64,000 nucleotides of DNA, taken from the NCBI GenBank assembly GCA_003712125.1, contig RHLF01000002.1, forward strand, positions 992,001 through 1,056,000, in the 5' to 3' direction. This DNA is from Allomuricauda sp. Its GTDB lineage: Bacteria; Bacteroidota; Bacteroidia; Flavobacteriales; Flavobacteriaceae. Below, piece after piece: positions 16,014-33,856 of the stretch. Both the position numbers and the translations under genes were made by a program. Position 1 is the first letter of the stretch. Every line of letters begins with the position of its first letter. The notes under the pieces are model-generated. The model saw only the letters and a list, made by a program, of their open reading frames with translations, searched no databases and was not told where the DNA came from.

Positions 16014-16877
16014 ATGAGGCAGCTTAAAATCATTAAACAAGTAACTAACCGTGAATCCAAATCCCTAGACAAATACCTACAAGACATAAGCAAAATAGAT
16101 TTGATAACTGCCGAGGAAGAAGTTGAGCTGGCCCGAAGAATAAAGGCAGGTGATCAAGTAGCACTGGAAAAATTGACCAATGCCAATCTAAGATTTGTCG
16201 TTTCTGTTGCTAAACAATACCAAAATCAAGGTCTAAAACTTCCTGATTTGATCAATGAAGGAAATGTGGGGTTGGTCAAAGCGGCCAAACGGTTTGATGA
16301 AACCCGGGGTTTTAAATTCATTTCATATGCGGTATGGTGGATCCGGCAATCTATATTACAGGCCTTGGCCGAACAATCTAGGGTTGTGCGGTTGCCCCTA
16401 AATAAGATTGGCTCCATCAATAAAATCAAAAAGACTTTTTCTTATTTGGAACAAGCCCACGAAAGACCACCTTCCGCGGAAGAAATCGCCAAAGAATTGG
16501 ACATGACTGTCAGTGAAGTAAAACAGTCAATGAAAAATTCTGGACGTCATGTATCCATGGATGCACCTTTAAAAGAAGGGGAAACTTCGAATTTATATGA
16601 TGTGATGCGTGCTGGTGAATCACCAAAACCGGATAAAGATTTGATGCACCAATCACTCAATACCGAAATTAATCGGGCCCTGGATACCCTTTCACCAAGG
16701 GAAGCTGATGTGGTACGTTTGTATTACGGTATAGGGGATCAACAATCTATGACGCTAGAAGAAATTGGCAGCACATTTGACCTCACTCGAGAACGTGTGA
16801 GACAAATTCGTGAAAAAGCCATTCGAAAACTCCGGCACAATTCAAAAAGTAAAATCCTTAAGACGTATTTGGGATAA
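16014..16877 (+). CDS. rpoD: Primary RNA polymerase sigma factor (RpoD/SigA, Bacteroidota type)
   Basis: 287 aa housekeeping sigma factor. Region 1.2 ([19 protein letters not shown]), region 2 with [34 protein letters not shown] (2.3/2.4), region 3 and region 4 with the helix-turn-helix [20 protein letters not shown] are all present. It lacks region 1.1, as is normal for the short Bacteroidota RpoD, which recognises TTTG/TAnnTTTG promoters such as those proposed in this window. Monocistronic with a 230-bp upstream region; a weak TTTG (15950) with TATACTGA 20 bp downstream is the only candidate promoter seen. Ends in a strong terminator. Confidence 0.96.
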
Positions 16878-17406: not shown

Positions 17407-18684
17407 ATGACACATCTTAAACTGGACTCTTTAACTACCCTATTACTAACCCTGTTCTTGGTGGGTTTTGCAGGCCATGCACATCGCAATAGCGCTGCGA
17501 TACAGCTTGATGCCACCGAACTGATTTTAACCAGTCACAGTTTTAATGCCAAAAAACGAAGTTATTTTTCAGTGGGGGGATCCAAAGAACAGGTACAAAG
17601 GGGTCTCACCATTGTCCATTTTAATAGTCAGATTCTTTTCGAACATCGAACTTTTGATACCTATGGTAGTGCTAAGGCTTTAGAGGAAGCCGTTGACGTG
17701 CTCAATTCGATGCTCAAAAATGAAGCTGTTTTTGCCATTTTAGCCCATGATTCTGCGGCCGGGAGTTTTTTCAACAAAATCATCCAGTCACGTACATTGG
17801 AACTGCCCAAATTGAAAAATTTGAAGGGAAGACAGGCTTATATCATGCACAATATCGAAGGGGTGCCTTTTGAAAACGTTGATGATATTTCAGCCACCCA
17901 AACGGTGAAGCTGCCACAAGATTTGGATGACCAAACCATTTACTTTCCTAAAGTCACCTACGATTTCGAGCCAAGCAATGACCGCTATATAGCCCATGCC
18001 GGCGGTGAGGTCAATGGTGTAAAATCAACCAATTCGCTTGAAGCACTGAATGAAAATTACAAAAAAGGGTTCCGACTATTTGAATTGGACATCATTGAAA
18101 CAGCTGACAAAAAATTGGTAGCCGCCCATGACTGGAAAATGTGGGCTCGATTTACGGATTATGAAGGAAGCTTGCCGCCTACACACAAAGAATTCATGTC
18201 ACGTAAAATTTATGGGGATTACACCACTTTAGATATGGATGGAATCAACGCCTGGTTTAAGGCGCACCCCGATGCCACCTTGATTACCGATAAGTTTGGT
18301 GACCCAAAAGTAATGGCCAAGCAATTTTTTAATCCCAACAAACTGATAATGGAACTGTTTAGTACCATGGCTATAGAACAGGCCTTGGCGTTGGGAATTA
18401 CCCCAATGATATCCCAAGATCCCCTTATGGGCATCAAAGGTGACCCGCTCAACTACCTTAAAGTAAATAACATTGGGTTTGCAGCGGTTTCACGGAGAAT
18501 AATTGCGAACAAAACCGATTTTTTACTACAACTTCGTGATCAAGGAATCAAGGTATATGTCTATAATGTCAACTTCGATGCCGGAAAGGATGAAGCCTAC
18601 GTAAATGAAAATGAAATTGGTTTGGTTTACGGTATGTATGCCGATAAATGGGTGTTCGATGAAGTAAAACCCAAAACCGACTAG
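17407..18684 (+). CDS. Secreted ILEI-domain / glycerophosphodiester phosphodiesterase-like fusion
   Basis: 425 aa from ATG 17407, which gives a hydrophobic signal segment (residues 9-24); an earlier in-frame start lacks one. Residues 45-160 match the interleukin-like EMT inducer (ILEI/PANDER) fold: RGLTIVHFN, then FDTYGS and AILAHDSAA. Residues 193-425 are a GDPD-like barrel: first catalytic-type His H197 in YIAHAGG, N209/E212 region, FELDI (E226, D228) and AAHDW (H241). GDPDs hydrolyse glycerophosphodiesters. It faces the polymer operon, and its stop interlocks with the YaiO-like stop (CTAG 18681-18684). It may trim phosphoglycerol groups added by the LtaS-like enzyme of that operon; this is inference. 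Confidence 0.8.
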   Translation: MTHLKLDSLTTLLLTLFLVGFAGHAHRNSAAIQLDATELILTSHSFNAKKRSYFSVGGSKEQVQRGLTIVHFNSQILFEHRTFDTYGSAKALEEAVDVLNSMLKNEAVFAILAHDSAAGSFFNKIIQSRTLELPKLKNLKGRQAYIMHNIEGVPFENVDDISATQTVKLPQDLDDQTIYFPKVTYDFEPSNDRYIAHAGGEVNGVKSTNSLEALNENYKKGFRLFELDIIETADKKLVAAHDWKMWARFTDYEGSLPPTHKEFMSRKIYGDYTTLDMDGINAWFKAHPDATLITDKFGDPKVMAKQFFNPNKLIMELFSTMAIEQALALGITPMISQDPLMGIKGDPLNYLKVNNIGFAAVSRRIIANKTDFLLQLRDQGIKVYVYNVNFDAGKDEAYVNENEIGLVYGMYADKWVFDEVKPKTD

Positions 18685-19964
18685 AATTTTACTTCATAAG
18701 TAAGGCCGGCAGAAATCCCCCAAAAGAATTGCCCAGACTCTGAAACCAATTCTTGTCGAACGGCTCCAATATTCGCACGATAGATATTGGGTGTTTTTTT
18801 ACCTGTAAACTGATATTCAAAACGCAATCGCTGCGACTCAATGAACAAAAGGGTTTCAGCCAATAGCTGGTTGCCCGCAACGATTTGTTGCAATTCAGGA
18901 GAGATTCCCATGCCCACATTTACACCCATGAAATTTTCAGCGTCCTTGGTGTATTTACGAACCAAAAGATTGCCCGACACACGTGTCAATCCATCAGGAC
19001 GGGGTGTTATGAACGAACGAAGCGAAAAATAGTAGTTGCCCCTATAATGTCCCAATGAACCTGTGATCGCCTTTACATCTTGGGTTTGGGTGACAATGTA
19101 TCGTCCTCCCGCAGACACCTCAATAGCTCCAGGTAAATTGGCATAAATGTCACCGCCAAATTTGTGTCTGGGATATATTTGGGCATTCGAGTAGCCATAA
19201 TTCAGGTAGGCATAAAAGCGTTTTAAGAAACGGGGATAAAAATCGATGTCATATTGAATGCCATGTTGGCCCAGTCTGTTGCTATAGTTGATTTTGGGGA
19301 TAATGTTGCCCACTTTGGTTTCATGGCGCCAGCGTATGCTTGAATATACCATGGGATCATAACGGTCGGTAAAAACGGTGAAGGAATTGTTTATCCCAAT
19401 TCGATTTTTGGAACTCTCATTCTTGGATTCCTGCTTTTCAGTATTGGAAACTTCCTTCTTCGCTTCCTTTTTTTGCTTTCTTCTGGTTTTCTTGTCGGCC
19501 ACACCATCGTCTTGATTATGCCATCCTTGATTTGGGTATTTTTTAGTATTGATCCGTTGCAAGGCAAGTTCACGCAAGCGCAACATCTCATCATCGTTTT
19601 TTAAACTTATGAGTGCTTTATTGGCCAAGCCCAGTGCGATGGCGTCTGCCTTGGCATAGAGTTCATTTTTTATGGCCAAGGTCCAGGCCTGTTTGTTCAT
19701 CTTATCTTGCGACGTAATTTTATTAAACTCTTCCCTAGCCTTTTTATAGCGGCCCTCCCAACTGTAGGAACTTGCAAGAAGCAATCGAGACTCCATATCA
19801 TGGGGAGATGCGACCAATTCTTTCTCAAGTAACGTGACGGCCATAGCATGTTTCCCCTGAAAGGCTAACTGATAGGCTTCTTGGTAGGAACTGGAATCTT
19901 GAGACCAGCTTAACAAACTGGTACAAAGAACAGTGATTACTATGTACAGCGATTTAATCTTCAT
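18681..19964 (-). CDS. YaiO-like outer-membrane beta-barrel protein with TPR N-terminus
   Basis: 427 aa. Signal peptide ending LSWSQ (residue 21), TPR repeats at about 25-125 (YQEAYQLAFQGKHAMAVTLLE..., LLLASSYSWEGRYKKAREEF), a charged linker of Lys/Glu (150-185), then a C-terminal about 240-residue barrel with alternating strands (RWRHETKVGNIIPKINYS, LNYGYSNAQIYP, ending in a terminal aromatic strand YEVKF). This is the YaiO/PgaA-like arrangement of TPR plus barrel used to export polysaccharides. Start overlaps the end of the LtaS-like gene by 11 bp: last gene of the polymer operon. Confidence 0.82.
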   Translation of the reverse strand: MKIKSLYIVITVLCTSLLSWSQDSSSYQEAYQLAFQGKHAMAVTLLEKELVASPHDMESRLLLASSYSWEGRYKKAREEFNKITSQDKMNKQAWTLAIKNELYAKADAIALGLANKALISLKNDDEMLRLRELALQRINTKKYPNQGWHNQDDGVADKKTRRKQKKEAKKEVSNTEKQESKNESSKNRIGINNSFTVFTDRYDPMVYSSIRWRHETKVGNIIPKINYSNRLGQHGIQYDIDFYPRFLKRFYAYLNYGYSNAQIYPRHKFGGDIYANLPGAIEVSAGGRYIVTQTQDVKAITGSLGHYRGNYYFSLRSFITPRPDGLTRVSGNLLVRKYTKDAENFMGVNVGMGISPELQQIVAGNQLLAETLLFIESQRLRFEYQFTGKKTPNIYRANIGAVRQELVSESGQFFWGISAGLTYEVKF

Positions 19965-22344
19965 AAACTTCCCCTAAATCAGCAACTGTTTTATTTACTT
20001 TCTCTTTTGGTTCTATTGTCAACGCCACCCCTGCTTTTCTGGCTTCCCTCCTAGCCCTTGCAATTTTATCGGCCACCAAATCAACACTGGAACTATTTTT
20101 TTGAACCGATTCGATGAGCTGCAGGGCCTCACGGTGCCTGCTATCCCAGAAATAAACATCAAAAAGGGCAGCGTACGAATCAATGTAATTGGGGTTCTGC
20201 TTGATACATTCTTTAAATATATCAATGGCAACTTGGCGCTCACCATTCCAAGCATTGATCCTACCTGAAAGTACTTTGGTATCCATATGGCTGGGTCTTT
20301 CCGAGAGAATATAACGGCATAATAATAATGCCTTGTCATATTCATCATCAAAAGCCAATTTGCGGGCGATTTTGAAATAGGTATCGGAATTGAAGCCATT
20401 GTAAAGGCTACTGATCCACACCATTTCACTATCTGTGAATTTTTCCTTCTTGATGGTGAAAATGGCCAAGCTATCGGGAATGATCTTATCATTTGAAGTT
20501 ACGTAGGCATTCATCGATTTAAATGCCTGTAACTTCGCTTCGATATTTCCGCCGCCCATTGCGGTTCCTAAATCCATATTCCGATCTATGGAATAAACCG
20601 ACCCATCAGAATACAACTTATCTCCGCTTATGTATTCTTTCAACTCATTTTTATTTCGCATAAGGGGAATATCCTTTATCGAGCGAAAGTTTTTGTTCAT
20701 ATCCAAGGCACTTCCCATCCATGCAACTTTTTTAGGCATTTTAAGCTCGTACTTCGATTGCAGCAATGCCAATAAAGTGGGCGTGACATCAAAATGAGAA
20801 GAAACTGCACTCATTTTTCTAGTTTTCTTCAAGAGTGGACTGTAAATAATCAAAGGCACATGAAACCTACTCAAATTGTTGCGCTGTGGAATGGGTATTA
20901 GTCTGTGGTCACCCGTGACGACAAAAATGGTGTTGTCAAAACCAGGCTTTTTGGCGTAGGCATCAAAGGCAAACTTTAGGGCATCATCCATGTACAAGAT
21001 TGTAGCAAAGACATTGTCGTTCTTCTTGATGACCTTTTTCGTCTTACTGGAGTATGATCTTTTGTTTAAGATCTGTTTGACCTTGCCTTCATAAAAGTCT
21101 TGTCTTGGTGGAATAAAAGGCTCATGGTTACTGATGGTCATATATGCTTCCATTCTTGGCTTACCGGCTTCTCGAGGCAGACTAAGGCTTTTTTTGAACA
21201 ACTCCTCATCAGGATATCCCCAAGATGAACCGGCGGCGTCCTCGGCCTGCATTTTATATTCATTACCAAACCCCGCCTTATCCAAAACGAAATCAACATT
21301 TTCGCTATTTAAAAAACGATCGACGCCATCAAAAGAACTATTGGTTCCTTGATAAAAAGCCGTGTGATACCCGTTGTTCTTCAAAATACTGAACAGGGTC
21401 AGCTTATTCGGATATTTTTCCAGCTCCATAAAGCCACTTTTACCAAAGGGAAGTGAGCCCAATAAAGACGGAACCACGCCGAATGTTCTACCCGTAGTAC
21501 TCAAACAATTCTCCCAATACAACGACTTTGTAGTCAACGAATCTAGAAACGGGGTGAATCCTTCAAATTCAGCACCTTCACCTACAAAATCACGACCTAG
21601 TCCTTCGACCATTATAAATACAATGTTTGGCTTTTCTTCCTTAAGATCAAAATACTCACCCAATACATTTTCGATATGGGTTTCCTTGATCAAGGGATAT
21701 TCAACATTGGCTTTATAAGTGGTATCTTCTGTACTGGAATCGTATAGGTTAAGCGCCAGATACTGCGTTTTGTTTTGATTGATTGGCTTTCCTTCAAGGA
21801 AAAGTGTTGAAATAAAAAGACTAAAAAGAACAATGGTAAAGGGATACATTCTACCGATATAATGGTAGTACTTTGAGGTTACTTTATAAAGTCCCAGAAA
21901 AATGGCCACAATTAAGACAACTGCCAAAATCGGGAGGAAGGACACTCCTCCAGAATTGGAGATTGTTTCCTTTATATCAGCCAAACTATAGCCCAACAAA
22001 TCTGATCCCAAGGGCACCAATGCTGTGCAGTAATATCCGATGAGCATCGCTTCTACAATCAACAATAACGAAAGCAATACAAAGACCAAATTGAAGCCAT
22101 ATTTTGGTCTCAGGTTCTCCCAAAAATTAAACCCAAAAACACAAAATACCCCAACAATACTGGCAAACCCCAGTTGATGGGCAATGGCAATAAATAAACT
22201 TGAACTCACGATACTATCGACCACCCCTTTGAAATAAAGTATCACGTACTGACCGATGGTCAATAAGAGAAGTCCACAAAAGAAAGAAATAATCAATCTT
22301 GTGTACTGCTTCAAAGAATATCTGTCTAGTTTGCTTGTATTCAT
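19954..22344 (-). CDS. LtaS-like sulfatase-fold phosphoglycerol transferase with C-terminal TPR
   Basis: 796 aa membrane enzyme. Five transmembrane helices (about 16-38, 45-71, 84-104, 134-152, 168-183) precede an extracytoplasmic alkaline-phosphatase-fold domain (about 238-560): metal-binding NIVFIMVEGLG (E247), nucleophile Thr in TTGRTFGV (T287), and the C-terminal metal sites VTGDHR and SRFHVPLIIY. This topology and motif set is that of lipoteichoic acid synthase and OpgB-type phosphoglycerol transferases. Residues about 650-780 add TPR-like helices. As Bacteroidota have no lipoteichoic acid, it probably decorates the polymer made by the adjacent GT2 synthase with phosphoglycerol or a similar phospho-group (inference). 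Confidence 0.85.
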   Translation of the reverse strand: MNTSKLDRYSLKQYTRLIISFFCGLLLLTIGQYVILYFKGVVDSIVSSSLFIAIAHQLGFASIVGVFCVFGFNFWENLRPKYGFNLVFVLLSLLLIVEAMLIGYYCTALVPLGSDLLGYSLADIKETISNSGGVSFLPILAVVLIVAIFLGLYKVTSKYYHYIGRMYPFTIVLFSLFISTLFLEGKPINQNKTQYLALNLYDSSTEDTTYKANVEYPLIKETHIENVLGEYFDLKEEKPNIVFIMVEGLGRDFVGEGAEFEGFTPFLDSLTTKSLYWENCLSTTGRTFGVVPSLLGSLPFGKSGFMELEKYPNKLTLFSILKNNGYHTAFYQGTNSSFDGVDRFLNSENVDFVLDKAGFGNEYKMQAEDAAGSSWGYPDEELFKKSLSLPREAGKPRMEAYMTISNHEPFIPPRQDFYEGKVKQILNKRSYSSKTKKVIKKNDNVFATILYMDDALKFAFDAYAKKPGFDNTIFVVTGDHRLIPIPQRNNLSRFHVPLIIYSPLLKKTRKMSAVSSHFDVTPTLLALLQSKYELKMPKKVAWMGSALDMNKNFRSIKDIPLMRNKNELKEYISGDKLYSDGSVYSIDRNMDLGTAMGGGNIEAKLQAFKSMNAYVTSNDKIIPDSLAIFTIKKEKFTDSEMVWISSLYNGFNSDTYFKIARKLAFDDEYDKALLLCRYILSERPSHMDTKVLSGRINAWNGERQVAIDIFKECIKQNPNYIDSYAALFDVYFWDSRHREALQLIESVQKNSSSVDLVADKIARARREARKAGVALTIEPKEKVNKTVADLGEVYED

Positions 22345-22353
22345 TTTTAAATC

Positions 22354-23784
22354 TTATGAAGCACTGGCCAAACCGCGTCTTACCTGAACGCCCCAGCCGA
22401 CTTTTTTTCTAAATAGTTTGGTCATATTGCCTCGAACCGCTGCACAAACCACCAAGGGATGAAAAACAAAAGGTTCAATTATAGCACAGCCCATCAAGGT
22501 CAAAATGTCTTTACTCTTGTTGTAATTGTTATACGTGGTCACATCCCAAAGAATGGCATAAAACGAAAACATAATGGAAAACATGTACACGGTGGCCGTT
22601 AGTGCGAAGAAGAAATCCCAGTTGATTATTCCCAGATACCAAAACAGGATTATGGTGAAAAAGCCAAAGAACTCCAGAAGTGGAGCCAACCATTCATAAA
22701 AGAACCAGTAGGGATAACTTATCAAGCCCAACCTACCGAACCTTGAGTTAAAAAACATATCCTTATGCTTGTACAAGGTCTCCAAATTACCTCGCGCCCA
22801 TCGGTCACGTTGATTTAGAAGTATATCCACCGTTTCAGGAACCTCTGTCCAACAGAGTGGATCAGGAATGTACTCGATGGTATAAGGTTCTCGCCTTTCG
22901 TGCATATACCGTCTTATCTTAAAGATAATTTCCATGTCTTCACCTACGGTATTTGTATCATAGCCACCTACGGCCAAGGCAATTTCACGGTCAAAAAAAC
23001 CGAAGGCCCCTGAAATGATCAAAAGACTATCGATACGGCCCCAGGCCATTCTTCCCAGTATAAATGATCGTGTATATTCCAATAGTTGAAAACGTGCCAG
23101 CCAATTTTTGGGCAATCGGATTTCTTCCAGAGTTCCTCCAGAGATACGGCATGAATTTGCCACACGTACGACCCCGCCAACCGCAACTACCCGTTTTTTA
23201 GAGCGTTGGAACAAGGCCTTGACCACATGCAAAAGCGAATCTGGGAGTAAAAGGCAATCAACATCAATACAACCCACAAATTGATTTTGTGATAATTGGA
23301 TACCTGCATTGAGTGCGTCTGATTTACCGCCATTTTCTTTGTCAACAACAACAAGCTTTGAATAAGAAAGCTGCCTTGATTTATAGATCCCGCGAATGGG
23401 CTTTGATTTGATATTTGGGTCGATTGGATAGGCTACCATTTCGAGGTCGTAGGCCTCAATCAGTTTTTGCATCGTCTCATCCTTACTGCCATCATTGACC
23501 ACCATGACTTCATAATTCACATATTTCAGTGAAAGCAGTGACCTAACATTTTCTACAATGTTAAGTCCTTCATTGTAGGCAGGAGCAATGATTGTTATTC
23601 CCGGGGCGAGTGGGGAAGCCATGATCTTTGAAAGATCAACAAAACTGTTTTTATTTTTATAGTGGAGGGAATTTCGGGTAGAAAAATAGCCCATAAAGGT
23701 AAACATGATAAACAGCATCACCGAGAATGTCATAAAGATGACATCGATATACTCTAACCAAATATTTGGGATACTGACTTCCAT
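22354..23784 (-). CDS. Processive GT2 polysaccharide synthase (PgaC/HasA-like)
   Basis: 476 aa inner-membrane glycosyltransferase family 2. A TM helix at about 13-34 precedes the catalytic domain with VNDGS (D98), DVD (174-176), GEDME (E282/D283) and QRDRW (325-329), the D,D,D,QxxRW set of processive synthases such as PgaC, hyaluronan or cellulose synthases; then three to four C-terminal TM helices (about 365-440). It polymerises a sugar nucleotide and moves the chain across the membrane. The sugar cannot be deduced. No PilZ, GGDEF or PgaD-like gene is adjacent; a HEAT-repeat membrane protein is encoded 3 bp upstream. Confidence 0.9.
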   Translation of the reverse strand: MEVSIPNIWLEYIDVIFMTFSVMLFIMFTFMGYFSTRNSLHYKNKNSFVDLSKIMASPLAPGITIIAPAYNEGLNIVENVRSLLSLKYVNYEVMVVNDGSKDETMQKLIEAYDLEMVAYPIDPNIKSKPIRGIYKSRQLSYSKLVVVDKENGGKSDALNAGIQLSQNQFVGCIDVDCLLLPDSLLHVVKALFQRSKKRVVAVGGVVRVANSCRISGGTLEEIRLPKNWLARFQLLEYTRSFILGRMAWGRIDSLLIISGAFGFFDREIALAVGGYDTNTVGEDMEIIFKIRRYMHERREPYTIEYIPDPLCWTEVPETVDILLNQRDRWARGNLETLYKHKDMFFNSRFGRLGLISYPYWFFYEWLAPLLEFFGFFTIILFWYLGIINWDFFFALTATVYMFSIMFSFYAILWDVTTYNNYNKSKDILTLMGCAIIEPFVFHPLVVCAAVRGNMTKLFRKKVGWGVQVRRGLASAS

Positions 23785-23787
23785 GAG

Positions 23788-25815
23788 CTATTCACCTAGG
23801 GATATTCGCTTTTCTTGTTCTTCATAGAACTCTTCTGTAAGTTCAAATGCTATTTCCGGTTCGCTTTTGCGCTCAACACCAATGCCGATTTCCTCCAAAA
23901 AACAAAGCTCCAAAGGCAAACGATTTTCACTCGGATCAGTTTCTTGATCAACGATGGGCTCTTCAAAGTTTTCAGAAACTTCCTCAACAGCTGTGTTGTC
24001 AGTGGTAACCTTGGGACTGTTAACTTCATAAAGTCGTTCGATTAGGGCCTCTTTGGATTTTTTCGCCTGTTGCCTAACCATCGGGTTGGCATCGTTCTCC
24101 AACAACTCCAAAAGCGGAAATTCCTTTTCATCCCCTACTTCGCTAATTTCCCTGAGCAGTATAAGTTTTGAATCCAGGTCTGAGGCATATTCAAAAAGGC
24201 TATGAAAAACACTATCGATCGCAGTAGTTTCGGTTTCAATATTTTCAGAACCGCTTTCCTTGTTTTGAATCGCTCTTAGTATGTTGAATAGGCGGTAACG
24301 TATTTCAGAGTCCTCCTCCTTTTGCATGACTTCTTCAAGAAGACCAATTTCCTTCTCGGTAGCTGATTCTTCCAAGAGGGCAATAAAGGTCAATCGTTCT
24401 TCAGGGCTCAAATCAAAATAATGTGCAGCTTCTGGGAGATCTTCATGGGGAAGCATGTCAACATCAGCCTCCACATTGTTTAGGAGACCTATTTGCGCAT
24501 TTATTGAAGAATCCAACGCCTTGTCCAGTACGCCGATTTCAAAAGAGGGTTCGTTCTTTTCTTCATTTTCAAATGGTGTCTTGGGTTCAGGATCTTCGTC
24601 TACTTCAATAGTGTCTAGGTCTATTTGAAACACTTCTATATCCTCTTGCTCTTGTATGGGCTCCTCAACGGATAAAACCTCCAATTCCTGATTCATTTCT
24701 GGAACGGATTCTGGAGCTATTGCGGTTGTTTTGCTTTCCGCAGCAATTTTGCCAATCTCTTCGGTGATAAAGTGTTCATGCTGCTCCTGTGCCAGCTCCG
24801 ATGCCTCTAACTCTTTCTGGCTTAATATGCCTTTTGAAGGAATGAAGGTCTCAGGCGCAATGTCATTTATGGCCATCTGTGCTTTATTCTTCACCAAAAA
24901 CGATGACGAGCTTTGCTCCACCTTTTTGAGAAACTCTAAATCTTCCTCATTGCCCAGTGTGGCAATGGTGTCTAGAATTTCAATCTTCGTTGCCTGTCCA
25001 GTCTTCGGAAAAACAGCTTTCAGGGTGTCAAGCGCAGTAATGAGACAGAATTCTTTAATACATAAAATCGCTTCCAGTTTTATCCGTTCGTTTTTATGTT
25101 TGACCAATTCGATAATCGATGCAGCCGCATCATTCTGATTGTAGTGACGTATGAGCCTCAGTGCAAATAGAACAACGTCACGGTTGCCGGATACCAACCA
25201 CGTTTTGAAGGAAGGTGGTCGAAAATGTTCCATGACGCGAAGCACCTCCATTAATTTTAATTGCTGCCATTCTGAAATACTGAATTTTGTGGTATCCAAA
25301 AAGTAGCTAATTCCTTCGGGTTTAAGGGAAACGGTAGCTATTTCAGCCTGTTTTCTAATAATTCCCCTGCGATCATTGATGAATTTGGTAATAAAATTAA
25401 ACGAGTCGACGACCTGCATTTGGGTCAATTCGATAATACCTTGTGACACAACATACCACCTCCAATCATTGAGCTTTTTATAGGCATCATGGTGCAGGTC
25501 AAGTTGGCGATACAGTTCATTCAGTTTTTTTCTGGTATCACCGGCCACGTCTTTTTGAAGGTCCAATAAAATTTGGGTGAGTACCTTTCTAAAAGAGGCA
25601 TCTTTAAGGGCGTCCCTAATCTCAATCTTTAACTTTACGTAGTCTTTTTTTTCAGGAACTGAATTGTCTTCGTCATGAAACAAAAAATTACTGATTATGG
25701 GCGCTAGTTCTTTCTTCTTAGAGCGGTTTTTCTTTGAATGTATCCGAAACCTATTTCGAATTAGAAAAATGAATAGAAAATAGGCCAAGCCGAGTACTGA
25801 AAACAGTAGCGTCAA
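23788..25815 (-). CDS. Membrane-anchored HEAT-repeat protein with acidic linker
   Basis: 675 aa. One N-terminal TM helix (residues 3-20) followed by basic residues, then helical HEAT-type repeats at about 90-340 (for example LRVMEHFRPPSFKTWLVSGNRDVV..., ALRLIRHYNQNDAAASIIEL), a highly acidic Glu/Asp-rich linker (about 340-480), further repeats at about 490-600, and a second acidic tail. The start appears to be a TTG (25815): no ATG precedes the TM helix in frame. HEAT scaffolds mediate protein assembly; position next to the synthase suggests it positions or regulates it in the cytoplasm. Confidence 0.75.
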   Translation of the reverse strand: MTLLFSVLGLAYFLFIFLIRNRFRIHSKKNRSKKKELAPIISNFLFHDEDNSVPEKKDYVKLKIEIRDALKDASFRKVLTQILLDLQKDVAGDTRKKLNELYRQLDLHHDAYKKLNDWRWYVVSQGIIELTQMQVVDSFNFITKFINDRRGIIRKQAEIATVSLKPEGISYFLDTTKFSISEWQQLKLMEVLRVMEHFRPPSFKTWLVSGNRDVVLFALRLIRHYNQNDAAASIIELVKHKNERIKLEAILCIKEFCLITALDTLKAVFPKTGQATKIEILDTIATLGNEEDLEFLKKVEQSSSSFLVKNKAQMAINDIAPETFIPSKGILSQKELEASELAQEQHEHFITEEIGKIAAESKTTAIAPESVPEMNQELEVLSVEEPIQEQEDIEVFQIDLDTIEVDEDPEPKTPFENEEKNEPSFEIGVLDKALDSSINAQIGLLNNVEADVDMLPHEDLPEAAHYFDLSPEERLTFIALLEESATEKEIGLLEEVMQKEEDSEIRYRLFNILRAIQNKESGSENIETETTAIDSVFHSLFEYASDLDSKLILLREISEVGDEKEFPLLELLENDANPMVRQQAKKSKEALIERLYEVNSPKVTTDNTAVEEVSENFEEPIVDQETDPSENRLPLELCFLEEIGIGVERKSEPEIAFELTEEFYEEQEKRISLGE

Positions 25816-25876
25816 ATCCCAAAGTAGGTTGGTATGTAGGGTGGAGTTTTCTATAGTAGGTCGTTTTGGAACTTTG

Positions 25877-26266
25877 TTATGGGGCCTTTACTGCATTTAT
25901 GATGCGTGACACCCTGACCAATAATTCTGGCGGACTAATGGGTTTCGACAAAAAATCATTGGCTCCCAATTCGAAAGCGTTCAGTATGTTTTCGTCATTT
26001 GACGCTGCAGAAATCAGAATTATGGGGAGCTGGGACTTCAACTCTTTACGAACGTGTTCAACAATTTCTATACCCGTGAAATAAGGAATCATTACATCCG
26101 ATATCAGCAAATCTGGCATATTGTCTTTTAAATATTCTTTTACTTGCAGGCCATTGGTCGCTTGAATAACCTCATAACCCGATTTTTCAAGCCAATGCGT
26201 GATCAATGATGCGAGCATTTCATCATCTTCAGCTAAGAGAATATTTTTAATGGGGGACTCTGGCAT
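25877..26266 (-). CDS. Single-domain response regulator (CheY-like)
   Basis: 129 aa receiver domain only: acidic pocket AEDDE (residues 12-16), phospho-acceptor D57 in LLISDVMIP, Thr/Ser switch region ILISAAS and the conserved Lys in FLSKPISPPEL. No output domain. Encoded between an HPt gene (3 bp upstream) and the HEAT-repeat membrane protein, so it is likely a stand-alone switch acting by protein contact on the polymer machinery. No histidine kinase gene occurs in the window. Confidence 0.95.
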   Translation of the reverse strand: MPESPIKNILLAEDDEMLASLITHWLEKSGYEVIQATNGLQVKEYLKDNMPDLLISDVMIPYFTGIEIVEHVRKELKSQLPIILISAASNDENILNAFELGANDFLSKPISPPELLVRVSRIINAVKAP

Positions 26267-26269
26267 GTT

Positions 26270-26677
26270 TTATAGTTTGGATAGTTCAGTGTCAAGGGCT
26301 GCCTCAATCGCGGGATATTCATCAACAAATTGATTGTACAGAAAATTGATGTATTTCAAATCTTTATCGCCTTTACAAACGGTTTCTATCTGAATTGCGA
26401 TCTGCAACAAACTATCGATGTTCATCATGCGAAGGCTTGATTTTATTTTGTGGCTTGCAAATCCTATTTTTTCAACATCCTCGTTTTCAATATTGACTCT
26501 TACATTGCCAATAAATTCGAGCATGTTCTTTTTGAACAATCGAATGAGCTCGGTCAATAAATCAACCTGCCCCATACATTCTTTCAAAATCTCATGAAGC
26601 TGCAAACCTAGTTGCTCGCGCTGCTCGTCGATTGTGTTCGATACCAAATCACTCTCAATTTTTAACTCTGTGTTCAT
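26270..26677 (-). CDS. HPt (histidine phosphotransfer) domain protein
   Basis: 135 aa helical protein. The phospho-acceptor motif is ASHKIKSSLRMM with H76, followed by the small-residue pattern of HPt domains, at the right place in a four-helix bundle (helices about 15-55, 60-90, 95-130). It would shuttle phosphate between a kinase encoded elsewhere and the response regulator gene 3 bp downstream. Overlaps the upstream gene by 4 bp (ATGA-type). Confidence 0.85.
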   Translation of the reverse strand: MNTELKIESDLVSNTIDEQREQLGLQLHEILKECMGQVDLLTELIRLFKKNMLEFIGNVRVNIENEDVEKIGFASHKIKSSLRMMNIDSLLQIAIQIETVCKGDKDLKYINFLYNQFVDEYPAIEAALDTELSKL

Positions 26678-27057
26678 ATTGCATTATTATGTTGTTCTTT
26701 CAGTATACGCATGGACAATTCCAACAATATCAAGGTGTTGATTTCCAAACTATTGAAAATCTCTTCTTGATGATTCGGAACTTCATTTTTTTTGAGCGTT
26801 TTTAGGAATTCTAAATTCTGTAGCGCGTTGTGAAATACCCTTTTTGGAAAAAGCGGTGCTTGAACTGGCTTCTTGCCAACGGCTGAGCCATTCATTTTGG
26901 TAGGCTCATTGAAGATTTTACCGTTGAGATCCGTTTTAAAATCTTGAAATTTTTGTTTCAGGTTGACCGCTTCATTTGATTTTAGTTCGCAATAGGCGAA
27001 GTCTGTAAGCGATTTTTCGAATTGATCAAGCCTAGTCAAAAGAGTTTTTACTTCCAA
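26674..27057 (-). CDS. Hypothetical helical protein, first gene of the polymer operon
   Basis: 127 aa with no recognised domain. Predicted mostly helical: residues 1-55 rich in Leu/Lys/Glu heptads, a disordered Lys/Pro/Gly segment at about 58-75, then helices 76-125. The start is uncertain: the first codon used is TTG at 27057, and no ATG is in frame ahead of it (an ATG 8 bp upstream is out of frame). The 4-bp overlap with the HPt gene supports translation. It may be an accessory of the phosphorelay. Confidence 0.6.
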   Translation of the reverse strand: MEVKTLLTRLDQFEKSLTDFAYCELKSNEAVNLKQKFQDFKTDLNGKIFNEPTKMNGSAVGKKPVQAPLFPKRVFHNALQNLEFLKTLKKNEVPNHQEEIFNSLEINTLILLELSMRILKEQHNNAI

Positions 27058-28903: not shown

Positions 28904-29113
28904 ACAACAGATTTCTTCCCCCATCGATGCAAAAGTCAAACTGCGGTCTTGTACTGGTTTGTAGTGTCGTAACAGTAATGCCTTCAGGATATCCAACCCT
29001 TTCAAAGGCCATGGTTTGGTTTTTAAAAATTCAAGGATTCAAAATTTGTGAATATCTTGTAACAAAAGGTGCCATTGCACTACAAACGATTAATAACTCA
29101 AAAAACGATAAAC

Positions 29114-29872
29114 ATGAAACCATTAAAATTTCTATGGGCGTTGGCAATTCTTGCCATCTCAACATCAGCTGCAATCGCGCAAGATGCTGAGCAAATCATT
29201 GACAACTATTTGGAAACCATCGGCGGGGTCGATAATTGGAACAAATTAACGGGAATAAAATTCATTGGTAAGGGCATTCAGCAAGGACAGGAATTCCCGG
29301 GATACATGATCATGCTAAAAGATGGCAGACAAATTCAAGCCTATGATATTCAGGGAAAAACGATGAAAGACAATGTCTTTGATGGCAATACACTGTGGAG
29401 CACCAATTTTCAGAATTTAAAGGCGGAAAAAGCCAGTTCAGAACAAACCAATAACTTTAAATTGGATGCCAATGATTTTCCAGACCCTTTTTTAAACTAT
29501 AAGGAAAAAGGTTATACACTGGAATTGTTGGGTTCAGAAACTATTGATGGTGTTGAAACCCACAAGATTAAATTAACAAAAGAGCCGCATACCGTTGATG
29601 GCCAAAAGGTAGATGATGTGGTTTTCTATTACTTTGATACAGACAGCAATGTACCGATTGCCATGGAGGTGGAACTTAAATCAGGTCCCGCTAAAGGTCA
29701 GATGTACCGCACCACGATGAGCGATTACCAAGAGGTTGAGGGACTCTACTTTGCTTTTACTACAACAGAATCCATTGGACAACAAGAAATTATTACAATT
29801 GCACTGGATGCCGTAGAACTCAATCCTACCGTTGAAGATGCTTTATTCACCTTTCCCGAAAACGAGGAATAA
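29114..29872 (+). CDS. Outer-membrane lipoprotein-sorting (LolA-like) protein, copy 1
   Basis: 252 aa from ATG 29114, giving a signal peptide ending AAIAQ (residue 22); an upstream frame exists without a signal sequence. The mature domain has the half-open beta-barrel pattern with repeated strands: NYLETIGGVDNWNKLTGIKFIGKGIQQGQEFPGYMIMLKDGRQIQ, then KMKGETLWS-like and KLTKEPHTVDG-type blocks. Paralogue of the next gene, about half identical. Probably a periplasmic lipid or lipoprotein carrier, but LolA function is not proved. Confidence 0.75.
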   Translation: MKPLKFLWALAILAISTSAAIAQDAEQIIDNYLETIGGVDNWNKLTGIKFIGKGIQQGQEFPGYMIMLKDGRQIQAYDIQGKTMKDNVFDGNTLWSTNFQNLKAEKASSEQTNNFKLDANDFPDPFLNYKEKGYTLELLGSETIDGVETHKIKLTKEPHTVDGQKVDDVVFYYFDTDSNVPIAMEVELKSGPAKGQMYRTTMSDYQEVEGLYFAFTTTESIGQQEIITIALDAVELNPTVEDALFTFPENEE

Positions 29873-30005
29873 GTCAACAAAATATTAGGATAATTTTAAC
29901 CAGTAAACGACTATCTCAAATGTTTTTTTCTGTTTTTAGTCCTTAAATTGTAACACGATAGCTAGAAATAAGTCTAATAGACAATTCAAATTAAAACCCT
30001 TTATA

Positions 30006-30773
30006 ATGAAAACTTTGAAAACACTAATTGGAGCATTGCTTTTTTGTATTGCCATACCCCTTCAGGCACAGACGGCTGATGAAATTTTGAACAACTACTT
30101 TGAGAACACAGGAGGCCTCGAAAATTGGAAAAATCTAAAAGGCATTAAGATGGCTGCAAAAGTGAATCAACAAGGCATGGAAATACCTATTGAAATGTTT
30201 CAGATGAAAGATGGACGTCAAATGACCAAAATCACTTTTCAAGGCAAGGAAATTTTTCAAGGCGTTTATGACGGTGAAACCTTATGGAGCCATAATTTTA
30301 TGACCATGAAGGCGGAAAAGTCTGATGCGGAGCAAACAGCGAATTTCAAATTGAACGCCAATGATTTTCCTGATTCTTTTATGGACTATAAAGAAAAAGG
30401 ATATACGGTTGAGCTAATGGGCAAAGAAACCATTGATGGTGCCGAAACTTTTAAGATAAAGTTGGTAAAAGAGCCTATAACAGTTGACGGTAATCAAGAA
30501 GATGACATTTCTTTTTACTTTTTTGACGTCGACAATTTTGTACCTATTGCCGTACAATCTGAAATAAAGACAGGACCCGCCAAAGGTCAAATGTCAGAAT
30601 CAAAAATGAGCGACTACCAAGAGGTGGATGGCTTGTATTTTCCATTTTCAATGACACAAGGACTTAAAGGCGGTCAATCGCAACCCATTACCATTGAGTC
30701 CATAGAGCTGAATCCTGAAGTAGATGAAACTGCTTTTGCTTTCCCAGAGGATACAGAAAACAAAGAAGAATAA
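30006..30773 (+). CDS. Outer-membrane lipoprotein-sorting (LolA-like) protein, copy 2
   Basis: 255 aa with a signal peptide ending PLQAQ. It aligns across its whole length with the gene 133 bp upstream: shared blocks include NNYFENTGGLENWKNLKGIK, FKLNANDFPDSFMDYKEKGYT, KLVKEPITVDGNQEDD and GPAKGQMSESKMSDYQEVDGLY (written piecewise). Tandem duplication. Both upstream regions contain TTGTAACA about 57 bp before the start. Followed by a terminator and the BNR-repeat gene. Confidence 0.75.
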   Translation: MKTLKTLIGALLFCIAIPLQAQTADEILNNYFENTGGLENWKNLKGIKMAAKVNQQGMEIPIEMFQMKDGRQMTKITFQGKEIFQGVYDGETLWSHNFMTMKAEKSDAEQTANFKLNANDFPDSFMDYKEKGYTVELMGKETIDGAETFKIKLVKEPITVDGNQEDDISFYFFDVDNFVPIAVQSEIKTGPAKGQMSESKMSDYQEVDGLYFPFSMTQGLKGGQSQPITIESIELNPEVDETAFAFPEDTENKEE

Positions 30774-30782
30774 GCAACATAT

Positions 30783-30808
30783 GGGCCCCATCATGGGGTC
30801 TTTTTTTT
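30783..30808 (+). terminator. Rho-independent terminator
   Basis: GGGCCCCA (30783-30790) pairs with TGGGGTCT (30794-30801) around a 3-base loop, followed by eight T. It ends the LolA-like tandem just before the next start at 30821. Confidence 0.75.
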
Positions 30809-30820
30809 AAAACAACAACA

Positions 30821-33800
30821 ATGAAAAAACTACTTTTTTCCTTTTTGATTGGTGCGTTGGCATTCCCCTTTTTTGGCGGTGCCCAACAAACCCTTGAAAC
30901 CATTTCCGGCAAACAGCTGTTCGGAGATATAAAAGCCAGACATATCGGGCCAGCCCTAATGAGTGGGCGTATTAACGATATGGAGGTTCATCCTACCAAT
31001 GGCAGGGTAATTTATGCCGGTACTGCCGGAGGAGGTGTCTGGAAATCCAATGATGCTGGGGCCACCTTCAATCCTATTTTTGATGAATATTGCCAATCTA
31101 TAGGTGCTGTTGAACTAGACCCTAACGATCCTGATAAGGTAATTTATGTTGGTACCGGTGAAACGTGGCCACGAAACAGTGTTTCGGTAGGTGATGGATT
31201 ATACAAATCTGTTGACGGTGGAGCCAACTGGACTAAAATTGGTTTGGAGAAATCGGAACGTATTGCCAATATCATTGTCAATCCACAAAATTCCGATGAA
31301 ATATATGTAGGCGTACTGGGGGCCCTTTGGGGTGATAGTGAAGAGCGCGGTGTATATAAATCATCCGATGGTGGAGCAACATGGGAAAAGCTTTTGTATA
31401 TCAACGCAAAAACGGGTTGTGCCGATTTGACCATGGACCCTTCAAACCCCAATGTGCTTTACGCCTCAATGTGGGAATTCAGAAGAACAGGATGGTCTTT
31501 TGAGTCTGGTGGAGCCAATAGTGCATTGTACAAGTCTACCGATGGTGGCAAAACTTGGAATAAAATTCACAATGGTTTCCCGGAGGGTAAGCTGGGTCGA
31601 TTGGCAATTGCCGTAGCCCCTTCAAACCCCAATGTACTATATACCGTGATCGAAGCGGAAAAAGATGAACGCAAAGGCTTGTACCGCAGTGATGACGCCG
31701 GTGCCAGCTGGGAGCAGTTAAACAACGATTTTGGTATTACCGTAAGACCCTTTTACTTTTCACGAATTGTTGTGGACCCTAAAAACGAAGACGTTGTGGT
31801 CAAAGGAGGCCTTAGTGGATCCATTTCAAGAGATGGCGGAAAGACCTTCAAGTCCCTGGGGAATATGCACTCTGATATTCACGACATTGCCTTCAGTATT
31901 GTAAATTCAGATATCATGTATGTGGGTACCGATGGTGGTGTTTATCGCTCTTGGGACGGTGGCACGACCATGGAAATTGTGGAGAACCTACCCTTATCGC
32001 AATTTTATCATATAAGCGTAGATGATGCCGAACCCTATAATGTGTATGGCGGCTTACAAGACAACGGATCCTGGTGGGGTCCTTCTTCGGCTCCGGGTGG
32101 AGTTCAAGCCAGAGATTGGAATTCTGTTGGCGCAGGTGATGGATTTAGAGTGCTAAAACATCCCACCAAAAAAATCATTTATTCTGAAATGCAAGGAGCC
32201 GAAAACGTTTGGCGTTATGATGTTGCCAACAACTTGACCAAAACCATTCAGCCTTTGCCTTCTTCCGAAGATCAAAAATTACGTTGGAATTGGAATGCAC
32301 CAATGGCGGTCAGTGCGCATCAACCCGATCGCTTTTATATGGGCAGCCAGTTTTTGCATAAATCAGAAGATATGGGAGATACCTGGACGATCATCTCACC
32401 TGATTTAACAACCAATGATCCTGCGAAGCAAAATCAAGAGGATTCAGGTGGACTGTCAAAAGACAATTCAGGTGCCGAAAACCACACTACCATATTCACG
32501 ATTGTCGAATCACCTCTAGATCAAAATGTTATTTGGGTGGGCACTGATGATGGTAATGTTCAGGTTACCCAAGATGGAGGTAAAACTTGGACCAATACCG
32601 TTGGAAATATTTCGGGTCTACCTGCAAACACTTGGTGTTACCATATTGAAGCCAGCAGCTTTGACAAGGGAACGGCATATGCCGTATTCGATGGTCATAC
32701 CATGAACGATATGAACCCATACGCCTATAAGACCACAGATTATGGTAAGACTTGGACAAATATCATATCTGATGATGTTGTGGGCTTTACAAGAAGCATC
32801 CAAGAAGATTATGAAAATCCTGATCTTTTGTTTTTGGGAACTGAGTTTGGGCTTTACATAACGCTAAATGGAGGCAAGAACTGGAAAAAGTTTACCAACA
32901 ATATGCCTTCCGTTGCGGTTCACCATATTGAAATGCAAAAGAAAACCAACGATTTGGTTATGGGCACGCATGGACGTGGTGTTATCATTATTGATGATAT
33001 TTCACCCCTTCGGGAAATCAACGAAGAAGTATTGAACAAAACCGTACATTTCTTTGAAATGCCTGCAACCGTAATTAATGAAACCAGCGGTTTCTCTGGC
33101 AGTTTCGGGGGTGAGACACAATTCGTTGGTTCCAATAAAACCAAGCAAGCCCAGATTAAATATTTCTTGAAAAAACGCCACACCTTTGGTAAAATGGCCA
33201 TGGAAATCCAAGACAATGAAGGTAATGTAGTCGCCGAACTTGGTCCGGGTAAGTCAAAGGGAATAAATGTGGTAAACTGGAATTACACTCGTAAGCAACC
33301 GAAGGTGGCCAAAGGGAAAACGTTTAGTTTTGGTGGTTTCACCTCACCTCAAGTCCCTGCAGGTACCTACAAAGTTGTACTGACCAAGGGAAAGGAAACT
33401 TTTGAGCATTCCTTCGATTTGGTCTATTCTGACGCTTCTCCTTTAAATGCGCAAGATCGAGAACTTAAGAACAGTACAACCATGCAATTGTATGACATGA
33501 CCCAAGAATTGGCCTATTTGGTATATGAAGTGGACGAAATTCTTGAAAGCGCCGGTGAAAAAGGCGACTCGAAAACAGTTTCCAAGCTAAATGCACTTAA
33601 GGAAACATTGGTGATTACCACAGGTGACAACTACGTAGGTTCGGCTGAACCCCAATTACGGGAGAAAATGGCCGACTTGTACAGCAAGGTAGCGTCAAGT
33701 TATGACAAACCTTCTCCTGACGAGTTAAGAAACCTGAAGGTTATTGCAGGAAGATTTGCCAATGCCAAAGATGCTTTTGCAAAAATCAAGACCAAGTATA

Positions 33801-33856
33801 TCAAGAAGAATCCTGTTGAACTGAAACCGTTCGACGAGTTCTTAGGAAGTAAATAA
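30821..33856 (+). CDS. Large secreted BNR/VPS10-type beta-propeller protein
   Basis: 1011 aa with signal peptide (residues about 1-22, ending FGGAQ). Residues about 45-740 are two beta-propeller units made of repeated BNR Asp-box motifs: many copies of S.DGG.TW (for example SNDAGATF, SVDGGANW, SSDGGATW, STDGGKTW, TQDGGKTW), the sortilin VPS10-like glycosyl-hydrolase-like family widespread in Bacteroidota. The C-terminal 270 residues include a beta domain and a helical tail ending FDEFLGSK. No type IX secretion C-terminal domain is evident. Role unknown; such proteins are often linked to extracellular degradation or peptidase complexes. Confidence 0.85.
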   Translation: MKKLLFSFLIGALAFPFFGGAQQTLETISGKQLFGDIKARHIGPALMSGRINDMEVHPTNGRVIYAGTAGGGVWKSNDAGATFNPIFDEYCQSIGAVELDPNDPDKVIYVGTGETWPRNSVSVGDGLYKSVDGGANWTKIGLEKSERIANIIVNPQNSDEIYVGVLGALWGDSEERGVYKSSDGGATWEKLLYINAKTGCADLTMDPSNPNVLYASMWEFRRTGWSFESGGANSALYKSTDGGKTWNKIHNGFPEGKLGRLAIAVAPSNPNVLYTVIEAEKDERKGLYRSDDAGASWEQLNNDFGITVRPFYFSRIVVDPKNEDVVVKGGLSGSISRDGGKTFKSLGNMHSDIHDIAFSIVNSDIMYVGTDGGVYRSWDGGTTMEIVENLPLSQFYHISVDDAEPYNVYGGLQDNGSWWGPSSAPGGVQARDWNSVGAGDGFRVLKHPTKKIIYSEMQGAENVWRYDVANNLTKTIQPLPSSEDQKLRWNWNAPMAVSAHQPDRFYMGSQFLHKSEDMGDTWTIISPDLTTNDPAKQNQEDSGGLSKDNSGAENHTTIFTIVESPLDQNVIWVGTDDGNVQVTQDGGKTWTNTVGNISGLPANTWCYHIEASSFDKGTAYAVFDGHTMNDMNPYAYKTTDYGKTWTNIISDDVVGFTRSIQEDYENPDLLFLGTEFGLYITLNGGKNWKKFTNNMPSVAVHHIEMQKKTNDLVMGTHGRGVIIIDDISPLREINEEVLNKTVHFFEMPATVINETSGFSGSFGGETQFVGSNKTKQAQIKYFLKKRHTFGKMAMEIQDNEGNVVAELGPGKSKGINVVNWNYTRKQPKVAKGKTFSFGGFTSPQVPAGTYKVVLTKGKETFEHSFDLVYSDASPLNAQDRELKNSTTMQLYDMTQELAYLVYEVDEILESAGEKGDSKTVSKLNALKETLVITTGDNYVGSAEPQLREKMADLYSKVASSYDKPSPDELRNLKVIAGRFANAKDAFAKIKTKYIKKNPVELKPFDEFLGSK

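Follow-up and report, generated by a model that had tools for sequence, protein, structure and literature searches.

Gene content and conservation of the operon

The window analyzed in this study is a stretch of 64,000 nucleotides from Allomuricauda sp. (Flavobacteriaceae; contig RHLF01000002.1 of assembly GCA_003712125.1, positions 992,001 to 1,056,000 of the forward strand); the genome assembly comprises 3.1 Mb in 5 contigs and is 99.3% complete. On the minus strand of the window, seven tightly spaced genes (18681-27057) form an operon-like array encoding a kinase leader, a histidine phosphotransfer (Hpt) protein, a response regulator (RR), a HEAT-repeat protein, a GT2 glycosyltransferase, an LtaS-like membrane transferase and a YaiO-type exporter, and a GDPD phosphodiesterase gene converges on them from the plus strand. 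Judged from its genes, the locus probably (about two chances in three) encodes a synthase-dependent exopolysaccharide system that includes an enzyme for phospho-alcohol tailoring and that a phosphorelay may gate. A preliminary description of the same DNA had placed the GT2, the YaiO-type exporter and the LtaS-topology transferase in one operon with a convergent GDPD, and coordinates and profile searches confirmed all four genes. The span that it gave reached 27057, but its text omitted the HEAT protein, the RR, the Hpt protein, the kinase leader and the C-terminal TPRs of the LtaS-like protein.

The GT2 (22354..23784, 476 amino acids) is a synthase of the processive type matching PF00535/PF13641, and its translation contains QRDRW and DVD motifs, which we take to be marks of processive synthases. 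Its best NCBIfam match was PgaC/IcaA (TIGR03937) with 147.4 bits, below the cut-off of 422.3, and CelA scored 35.5 bits. Downstream lies the LtaS/OpgB-family membrane transferase (19954..22344, 796 amino acids), with five hydrophobic segments between residues 17 and 184, predicted to span the membrane, followed by a presumably periplasmic sulfatase-fold domain (PF00884 at 239-529, 115 bits against a cut-off of 25) and weak C-terminal TPR matches. The last gene (18681..19964) encodes an N-terminal TPR region and a YaiO outer-membrane beta-barrel, a putative exporter, assigned to its family by PF19413 (207 bits) and TIGR04390 (176.6 bits, cut-off 32).

Neighbouring genes overlap or nearly touch. 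The overlaps measure 11 bp between YaiO and LtaS-like, 4 bp between Hpt and leader and 4 bp, tail to tail, between GDPD and YaiO; the gaps are 9 bp (LtaS-like/GT2), 3 bp (GT2/HEAT), 61 bp (HEAT/RR) and 3 bp (RR/Hpt). A promoter and terminator scan of the sequence performed at chance level (31 hits versus 26.2 expected and 9 versus 9.3, respectively) and was not used.

Relatives of the window keep the operon in a conserved gene order. The scan of named genomes yielded 66 loci, 65 of which hold an LtaS-like ortholog (L057-L121; locus numbers carry an L, genome numbers a G), while L122 contains three unrelated sulfatase-like frames. Among the 65, a GT2 was present in 63, YaiO in 62, HEAT in 60 and the RR and Hpt in 57 each, and strand agreed throughout; any gene not counted falls beyond a contig end. 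Full-length orthologs of the LtaS-like gene were thus not associated with other loci; such an association would have spoken against the preliminary description. LtaS-like proteins of approximately 640-700 amino acids in relatives were considered as the same gene and rejected: they show 26-30% identity, the eight of their neighbourhoods that were inspected (L049-L056) contain no recognisable GT2, YaiO or HEAT genes of the operon kind, and, as a separate set, they were therefore left out of the ortholog counts.

A sample across the phylum extended this picture. It comprised 60 of the 77 GT2 places beyond the window's own, in stretches of up to 20 kb, six of them shortened by contig ends; the remaining places were already covered, were close kin or were set aside. 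An LtaS-like gene was found in 19 of the 60 stretches, fused to the GT2 in six, directly downstream in six, nearby on the opposite strand in six and about 6 kb away in one. When four loci found via the LtaS-like gene were added to the 60 found via GT2 (6/60 fused), GT2 and LtaS-like formed a single frame of 1134-1270 amino acids in 8 of 64 loci, all from more distant relatives. Because of this conserved linkage and the fusions, the genomic evidence strongly supports a joint function of the GT2 synthase and the LtaS-like enzyme.

Some loci had been collected twice (L038=L057, L040=L067, L041=L117, L042=L079, L255=L103, L260=L075); the first four repeats were removed from the trees described below and the last two were kept. 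Hits with in-frame stops (LtaS or GDPD in G134, G001, G036 and G194) were taken unchanged.

Active site of the LtaS-like protein and the neighbouring GDPD

In the LtaS-like protein of the window, E247, T287, H407, D479, H480 and H495 are all present and aligned with the catalytic residues of LtaS/OpgB; we take their equivalents to be catalytic in LtaS. Profile scores lay far below the family cut-offs, with 58.7 bits against 970 for the LtaS model NF053595 and 47.2/574 and 54.4/572 bits for the OpgB/phosphoglycerol transferase I models (NF003000 and NF009027). By curated cut-offs, the operon proteins hence fall outside the LtaS, OpgB and PgaC families. A predicted model (mean pLDDT 70.5) gave its best fold matches with LtaP, 3lxq and LtaS (Z 24.5-25.8); a sulfatase came next in the list at Z 23.6, so that the lead of the LtaS group in this modelled fold is modest. 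In a Foldseek search, the top matches of the model were LtaS chains. Models of phosphoethanolamine transferases of the EptA/OpgE/BcsG type did not match at E ≤0.01 in Pfam or NCBIfam, and no such transferase occurred among the 50 structural matches listed for the model, although the protein may belong to that family.

The active site is not preserved throughout. We counted as degenerate any protein that had lost E247, T/S287, D479 or H480, with T287S alone treated as intact, and counts of intact proteins refer to 107 aligned rows with readable sites. The four positions are retained in 88 of these rows, including the window; in the most distant group, every one of 27 rows keeps them, among these some that lack the TPR. 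In contrast, 19 of the 107 rows, representing 18 genomes owing to a retained locus repeat, have lost H407 and D479 and some also E247, T287 or H480, yet the protein still measures 768-814 amino acids and the operon is intact. These pseudoenzyme loci are L043, L044, L103/L255, L109, L181, L241-L250, L254, L256 and L257.

Two trees, both quick builds with long branches flagged and with rows gapped at a catalytic site excluded, were used to count the losses. On the LtaS-like tree, at least three changes to the degenerate state are required, namely in a clade of 16 rows (full SH-aLRT support), in Cellulophaga sp. 20_2_10 and in Kriegella, and on the GT2 tree at least six. Because the two trees disagree, the LtaS-like gene may have been swapped between lineages in places. 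This repeated loss in proteins of full length would be expected if the LtaS-like protein were mainly a structural TPR scaffold joining GT2 to YaiO, with catalysis optional or fading. We consider such a role improbable, since the residues of the window protein, those of most rows and those of all rows of the most distant group, including proteins without TPR, remain in place. Repeated active-site decay with the protein kept nevertheless offers a means to separate a structural from a catalytic role, and this pseudoenzyme series is, together with the RR-HEAT-GT2 core described below, the part of the system most worth pursuing.

The convergent gene (17407..18684 on the plus strand, open frame from 17368) encodes a phosphodiesterase with an N-terminal hydrophobic segment. 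Its GDPD half was assigned by PF03009 (35.3 bits, cut-off 23.6); the residues H197, E226, D228 and H241, presumably those of the GDPD active site, are invariant in 28 orthologs, and the predicted model (mean pLDDT 80) matches GDPD structures including B. subtilis GlpQ. The ILEI half of the proposed ILEI-GDPD identity was marginal in the window copy (PF15711, 16.6 bits, E 0.011, cut-off 27), while 23 of the 28 orthologs matched at E up to 1, the best at 3.2e-7. A sigma-70 type gene (named by eye; 16014..16877, plus strand) flanks the GDPD outside the system and marks a conserved genomic site with or without GDPD.

Among 299 family genomes including that of the window, an LtaS-like gene was detected in 64 (E 1e-60) and a GDPD in 31 (E 1e-30). 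Close stand-alone GDPD orthologs (E <1e-140) occur in 19 of the 299 genomes, and in all 19 the LtaS-like gene is a close relative (67% or more); 14 of these orthologs adjoin it and five are unlinked (G021, G236, G240, G256 and G272). The other 12 GDPD genomes and the additional copies carried by G247 and G272 contributed 13 long frames (about 745-1020 amino acids) and one short frame in G036. All 13 long frames are fusions to a membrane sulfatase-fold (LtaS-superfamily) domain, the longer ones with ILEI in between, so that this GDPD subfamily is genuinely linked to enzymes of the LtaS superfamily. The fusion proteins (L175:9481-12408, L176:9972-12227 and L261-L271), which occur in Flavobacteriaceae mostly without this operon, are possibly bifunctional phospho-alcohol transferases/hydrolases.

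Within the named loci that have both the sigma-70 gene and YaiO in view, GDPD is present in 41 of 57; one of the 16 loci without it, L079, belongs to a genome (G021) that has a GDPD elsewhere. With these absences, 19 of 299 genomes positive and 5 of the 19 copies unlinked, the four-gene set proposed in the preliminary description does not hold generally as far as the GDPD is concerned, and the gene was rejected as a general marker of the operon because it is confined to one lineage. The same figures would suit a GDPD that is functionally unrelated to the operon and has been kept beside it by shared ancestry at the sigma-70 site, as would the partnerless copy in G036 and an unlinked copy in G021 (L174:9751-11019), which lies near genes resembling, by eye, nucleotide-sugar and polysaccharide-export genes. 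This explanation is somewhat doubtful in our view, as even the five unlinked copies sit in genomes with an LtaS-like gene and the subfamily is fused to LtaS-superfamily domains in every long frame.

The presence of GDPD also correlates with the state of the active site. No GDPD adjoins any of the 19 degenerate rows, 17 such genomes of the family scan are also absent from the GDPD list, and all 47 GDPD-bearing rows with six readable sites are intact (duplicates included).

The RR-HEAT-GT2 core

Upstream of the GT2, the operon encodes putative signalling components. The HEAT-repeat protein (23788..25815, minus strand; PF13646, 45.9 bits) is membrane-anchored by a single N-terminal hydrophobic segment; because this segment precedes a basic stretch, the repeat domain is predicted to be cytosolic. 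The RR (25877..26266, minus strand) consists of a REC domain only (PF00072, 95 bits) and matches no further Pfam family, i.e. it has no output domain. It is preceded by a stand-alone Hpt phosphotransfer protein (26270..26677, minus strand, 135 amino acids; PF01627, 40.8 bits) and by a protein of 127 amino acids (26674..27057, minus strand).

In most near relatives, a single frame of 569-604 amino acids is found instead, and the domains detected in the one example scanned (L059) are HisKA, HATPase, REC and Hpt. The window keeps just the leader and the Hpt of this hybrid histidine kinase: the Hpt protein corresponds to the C-terminal part of the relatives' kinase, and the 127-residue protein is homologous to its N-terminal leader, aligning best with residues 16-122 of one frame of 587 residues (E 5.5e-10). 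Since the kinase core is absent, another kinase should feed the Hpt relay in the window genome. The Hpt-type frame is likewise too short for a kinase core (134-332 amino acids) in 19 of 64 loci having such a frame, duplicates included.

In the phylum GT2 sample, a same-strand gene lies directly upstream of the synthase at 59 of 60 loci, and 55 of these 59 genes match HEAT_2. An upstream RR was recognised in 43 of 60 loci by a profile of this RR family. Because 41 of the 60 stretches contain no LtaS-like gene, HEAT-GT2, usually with the RR, is the shared core across the phylum sample as far as sequence can tell. At one locus (L186 in G455), a second HEAT-GT2-YaiO module stands directly behind an RR-HEAT-GT2-LtaS-YaiO operon.

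A search for GGDEF proteins, carried out for the window genome only, returned no match, and the control was positive in 8 of 14 genomes. Based on the neighbourhood, the missing output domain and the lack of GGDEF proteins, the RR may act on HEAT and GT2. We tentatively extend this view to a Bacteroidota-wide class of processive synthases that would be gated post-translationally by docking of a single-domain RR on a membrane HEAT adaptor, as a counterpart, in cells that lack GGDEF proteins, to the control of BcsA and PgaCD by cyclic di-GMP (c-di-GMP), and that would carry swappable tailoring modules (active LtaS-like, pseudo-LtaS, LtaS-GT2 fusion or none). To our knowledge, there is no settled account of how marine flavobacteria regulate a processive synthase in the absence of c-di-GMP, and the RR-HEAT-GT2 trio provides a direct and testable candidate.

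Proposed pathway, head group and comparison with known systems

Surface polysaccharides shape biofilms and the algal association of marine flavobacteria. In the pathway that we infer for the operon, the GT2 would polymerise a glycan and extrude the chain through the inner membrane, and the LtaS-like enzyme, working in the periplasm in the way that BcsG modifies cellulose, would take a phospho-alcohol head group off a membrane phospholipid and attach it to the chain as this emerges. The glycan would then be passed on by the TPRs of both the LtaS-like protein and YaiO and leave the cell through the YaiO barrel, and the GDPD, where present, could hydrolyse or trim the phosphodiester substituent. 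A phosphorelay from Hpt to the single-domain RR may switch the GT2 through the HEAT protein, thereby replacing c-di-GMP.

Several observations weigh against this pathway or parts of it. Because the LtaS-like active site is degenerate in 18 relatives, these bacteria must, judging by the residues, be able to do without the modification, and the protein must serve a different purpose in them. The correlation between GDPD and an intact active site is confounded by ancestry: a tree-aware test, which coded unlinked GDPD copies as absent, left three supported independent pairs, of which one to two agree and none disagrees (p 0.5-1). Moreover, the sulfatase domain fused to GDPD belongs to another branch, with 19-22% identity to that of the window, and the G036 GDPD (L177:9498-10316, a frame of 272 amino acids) is unfused and lies in a genome where no LtaS-like gene is detected at E 1e-60. 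On the regulatory side, 17 of the 60 GT2 loci lack an upstream RR of this family, as judged by the family profile rather than a general RR model; three of them (L205, L207 and L216) have an RR downstream. Finally, the window genome offers no obvious source of a phosphoglycerol lipid. Its one CDP-alcohol phosphatidyltransferase (PF01066) is PssA-like (87.9 bits for pssA, cut-off 107, versus 30.3 for pgsA), no PgsA-type enzyme was found by profile, although a divergent enzyme or another route is possible, and a profile search detected no cardiolipin synthase (TIGR04265; control positive in 10 of 14 genomes). In 13 of the 18 other LtaS-bearing genomes with a close GDPD ortholog, even a weak PgsA-like match is missing.

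These 18 belong to a set of 60 genomes, i.e. the 63 LtaS-positive ones beyond that of the window minus partial or broken hits (G170, G210 and G257). None of the 60 reached the pgsA cut-off, a result that is weak on its own and reflects a strict threshold, because only 6 of 14 control genomes pass it. A PgsA-like match across most of the model was present in 18 of the 60 at 38-50 bits, 17 of them in frames of 197-220 amino acids, and one more genome scored 23 bits. The single-contig genome G002 combines the LtaS-like gene and a GDPD with one PF01066 protein only.

Thus, either these bacteria produce a phosphoglycerol lipid although no PgsA can be recognised in them, or the head group used by an LtaS/OpgB-type enzyme is a different one. 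Gram-negatives are known to decorate glycans with phosphoglycerol or phosphoethanolamine, as exemplified by OpgB, OpgE and BcsG in the sections available of two reports (PMC11379886, PMC3818809), and small amounts of phosphatidylglycerol have been reported for Bacteroides in the accessible part of a further study (PMC5167729). For flavobacterial polymers, the part consulted of a review of marine carbohydrate antigens contained nothing on glycerol phosphate. Since the PssA-like enzyme and the phosphatidylethanolamine lipid conflict with the LtaS/OpgB family affinity, the head group is left open: phosphoglycerol is an even bet, phosphoethanolamine would be the next candidate at clearly lower odds, and another group or none appears least probable. 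Of the decorated polysaccharide put forward in the preliminary description, the association of the LtaS-like protein with synthase and exporter therefore stood, but phosphoglycerol as the decoration was not established, given the missing PgsA-type and cardiolipin synthase profiles and the 18 relatives with a degenerate site; nor was trimming by the GDPD established.

It could be argued that the LtaS-like protein is a phosphoethanolamine transferase acting on phosphatidylethanolamine, a lipid certain to occur in this genus; this would make the operon a functional counterpart of phosphoethanolamine cellulose with a different synthase and the GDPD a lipid-scavenging neighbour. The PssA-like enzyme as the only one of its family in the window genome fits this explanation, as do the available excerpts of Muricauda/Flagellimonas descriptions, which name phosphatidylethanolamine as a polar lipid and do not mention phosphatidylglycerol (PMC10301316, PMC12688033); BcsG adjoining BcsA would be a precedent (PMC11379886, in part). 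However, the same excerpts list unidentified lipids and, in several strains, an unidentified phospholipid that could be anything (PMC10301316, PMC12688033). Profiles and fold point to LtaS/OpgB and to no phosphoethanolamine-transferase model, OpgB and OpgE are described in the pages available as lacking sequence similarity to each other (PMC3818809), and the sulfatase-GDPD fusions would go unexplained. We therefore regard this explanation as unlikely and favour a phospho-alcohol tailoring enzyme of LtaS/OpgB affinity.

By analogy, the operon would work most like the E. coli phosphoethanolamine cellulose machine, with a PgaC-like GT2 and YaiO replacing BcsA and BcsC. Both combine a GT2 synthase, an adjoining five-transmembrane transferase with a periplasmic catalytic domain and a TPR-barrel exporter (BcsA-BcsG-BcsC; PMC11379886, as far as available). 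They differ in that the window GT2 scores higher with PgaC than with CelA, the transferase is LtaS/OpgB-like and carries TPRs or is fused to the GT2, no BcsB-type match occurs among the operon proteins and the window genome has no GGDEF match.

The PgaABCD system for poly-N-acetylglucosamine comprises the PgaC synthase and a TPR-barrel exporter. The window has a PgaC-like GT2 and a TPR-barrel exporter as well, but its synthase stays below the PgaC cut-off, no deacetylase match was found in the operon, the exporter is of the YaiO type and the genome, devoid of GGDEF matches, gives no sign of c-di-GMP control. OpgB (MdoB) is also a membrane transferase, which puts phosphoglycerol on a glucan according to the accessible part of one report (PMC3818809), and it shares 22% identity with the catalytic domain of the window protein. 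Unlike the OpgB setting, the operon contains an exporter and a transferase with TPRs and no OpgG/OpgH-like gene (the genome was not searched for these), and the genome shows no PgsA-type match. LtaS and LtaP provide the best fold matches, and LtaS the best NCBIfam score, of the LtaS-like protein, which in contrast resides in a Gram-negative host, is linked to a polysaccharide synthase and reaches a small fraction of the LtaS cut-off. A search of the open-access literature, including the available parts of PMC12419801 and PMC7112194, turned up neither an RR-HEAT-GT2 nor a GT2-LtaS-YaiO system; most subscription journals lay outside this search.

Beyond the operon, the window encodes two similar tandem proteins (267 and 255 amino acids) followed by a repeat-propeller-like protein of 1011 amino acids at 29069-33856, all labelled by eye.

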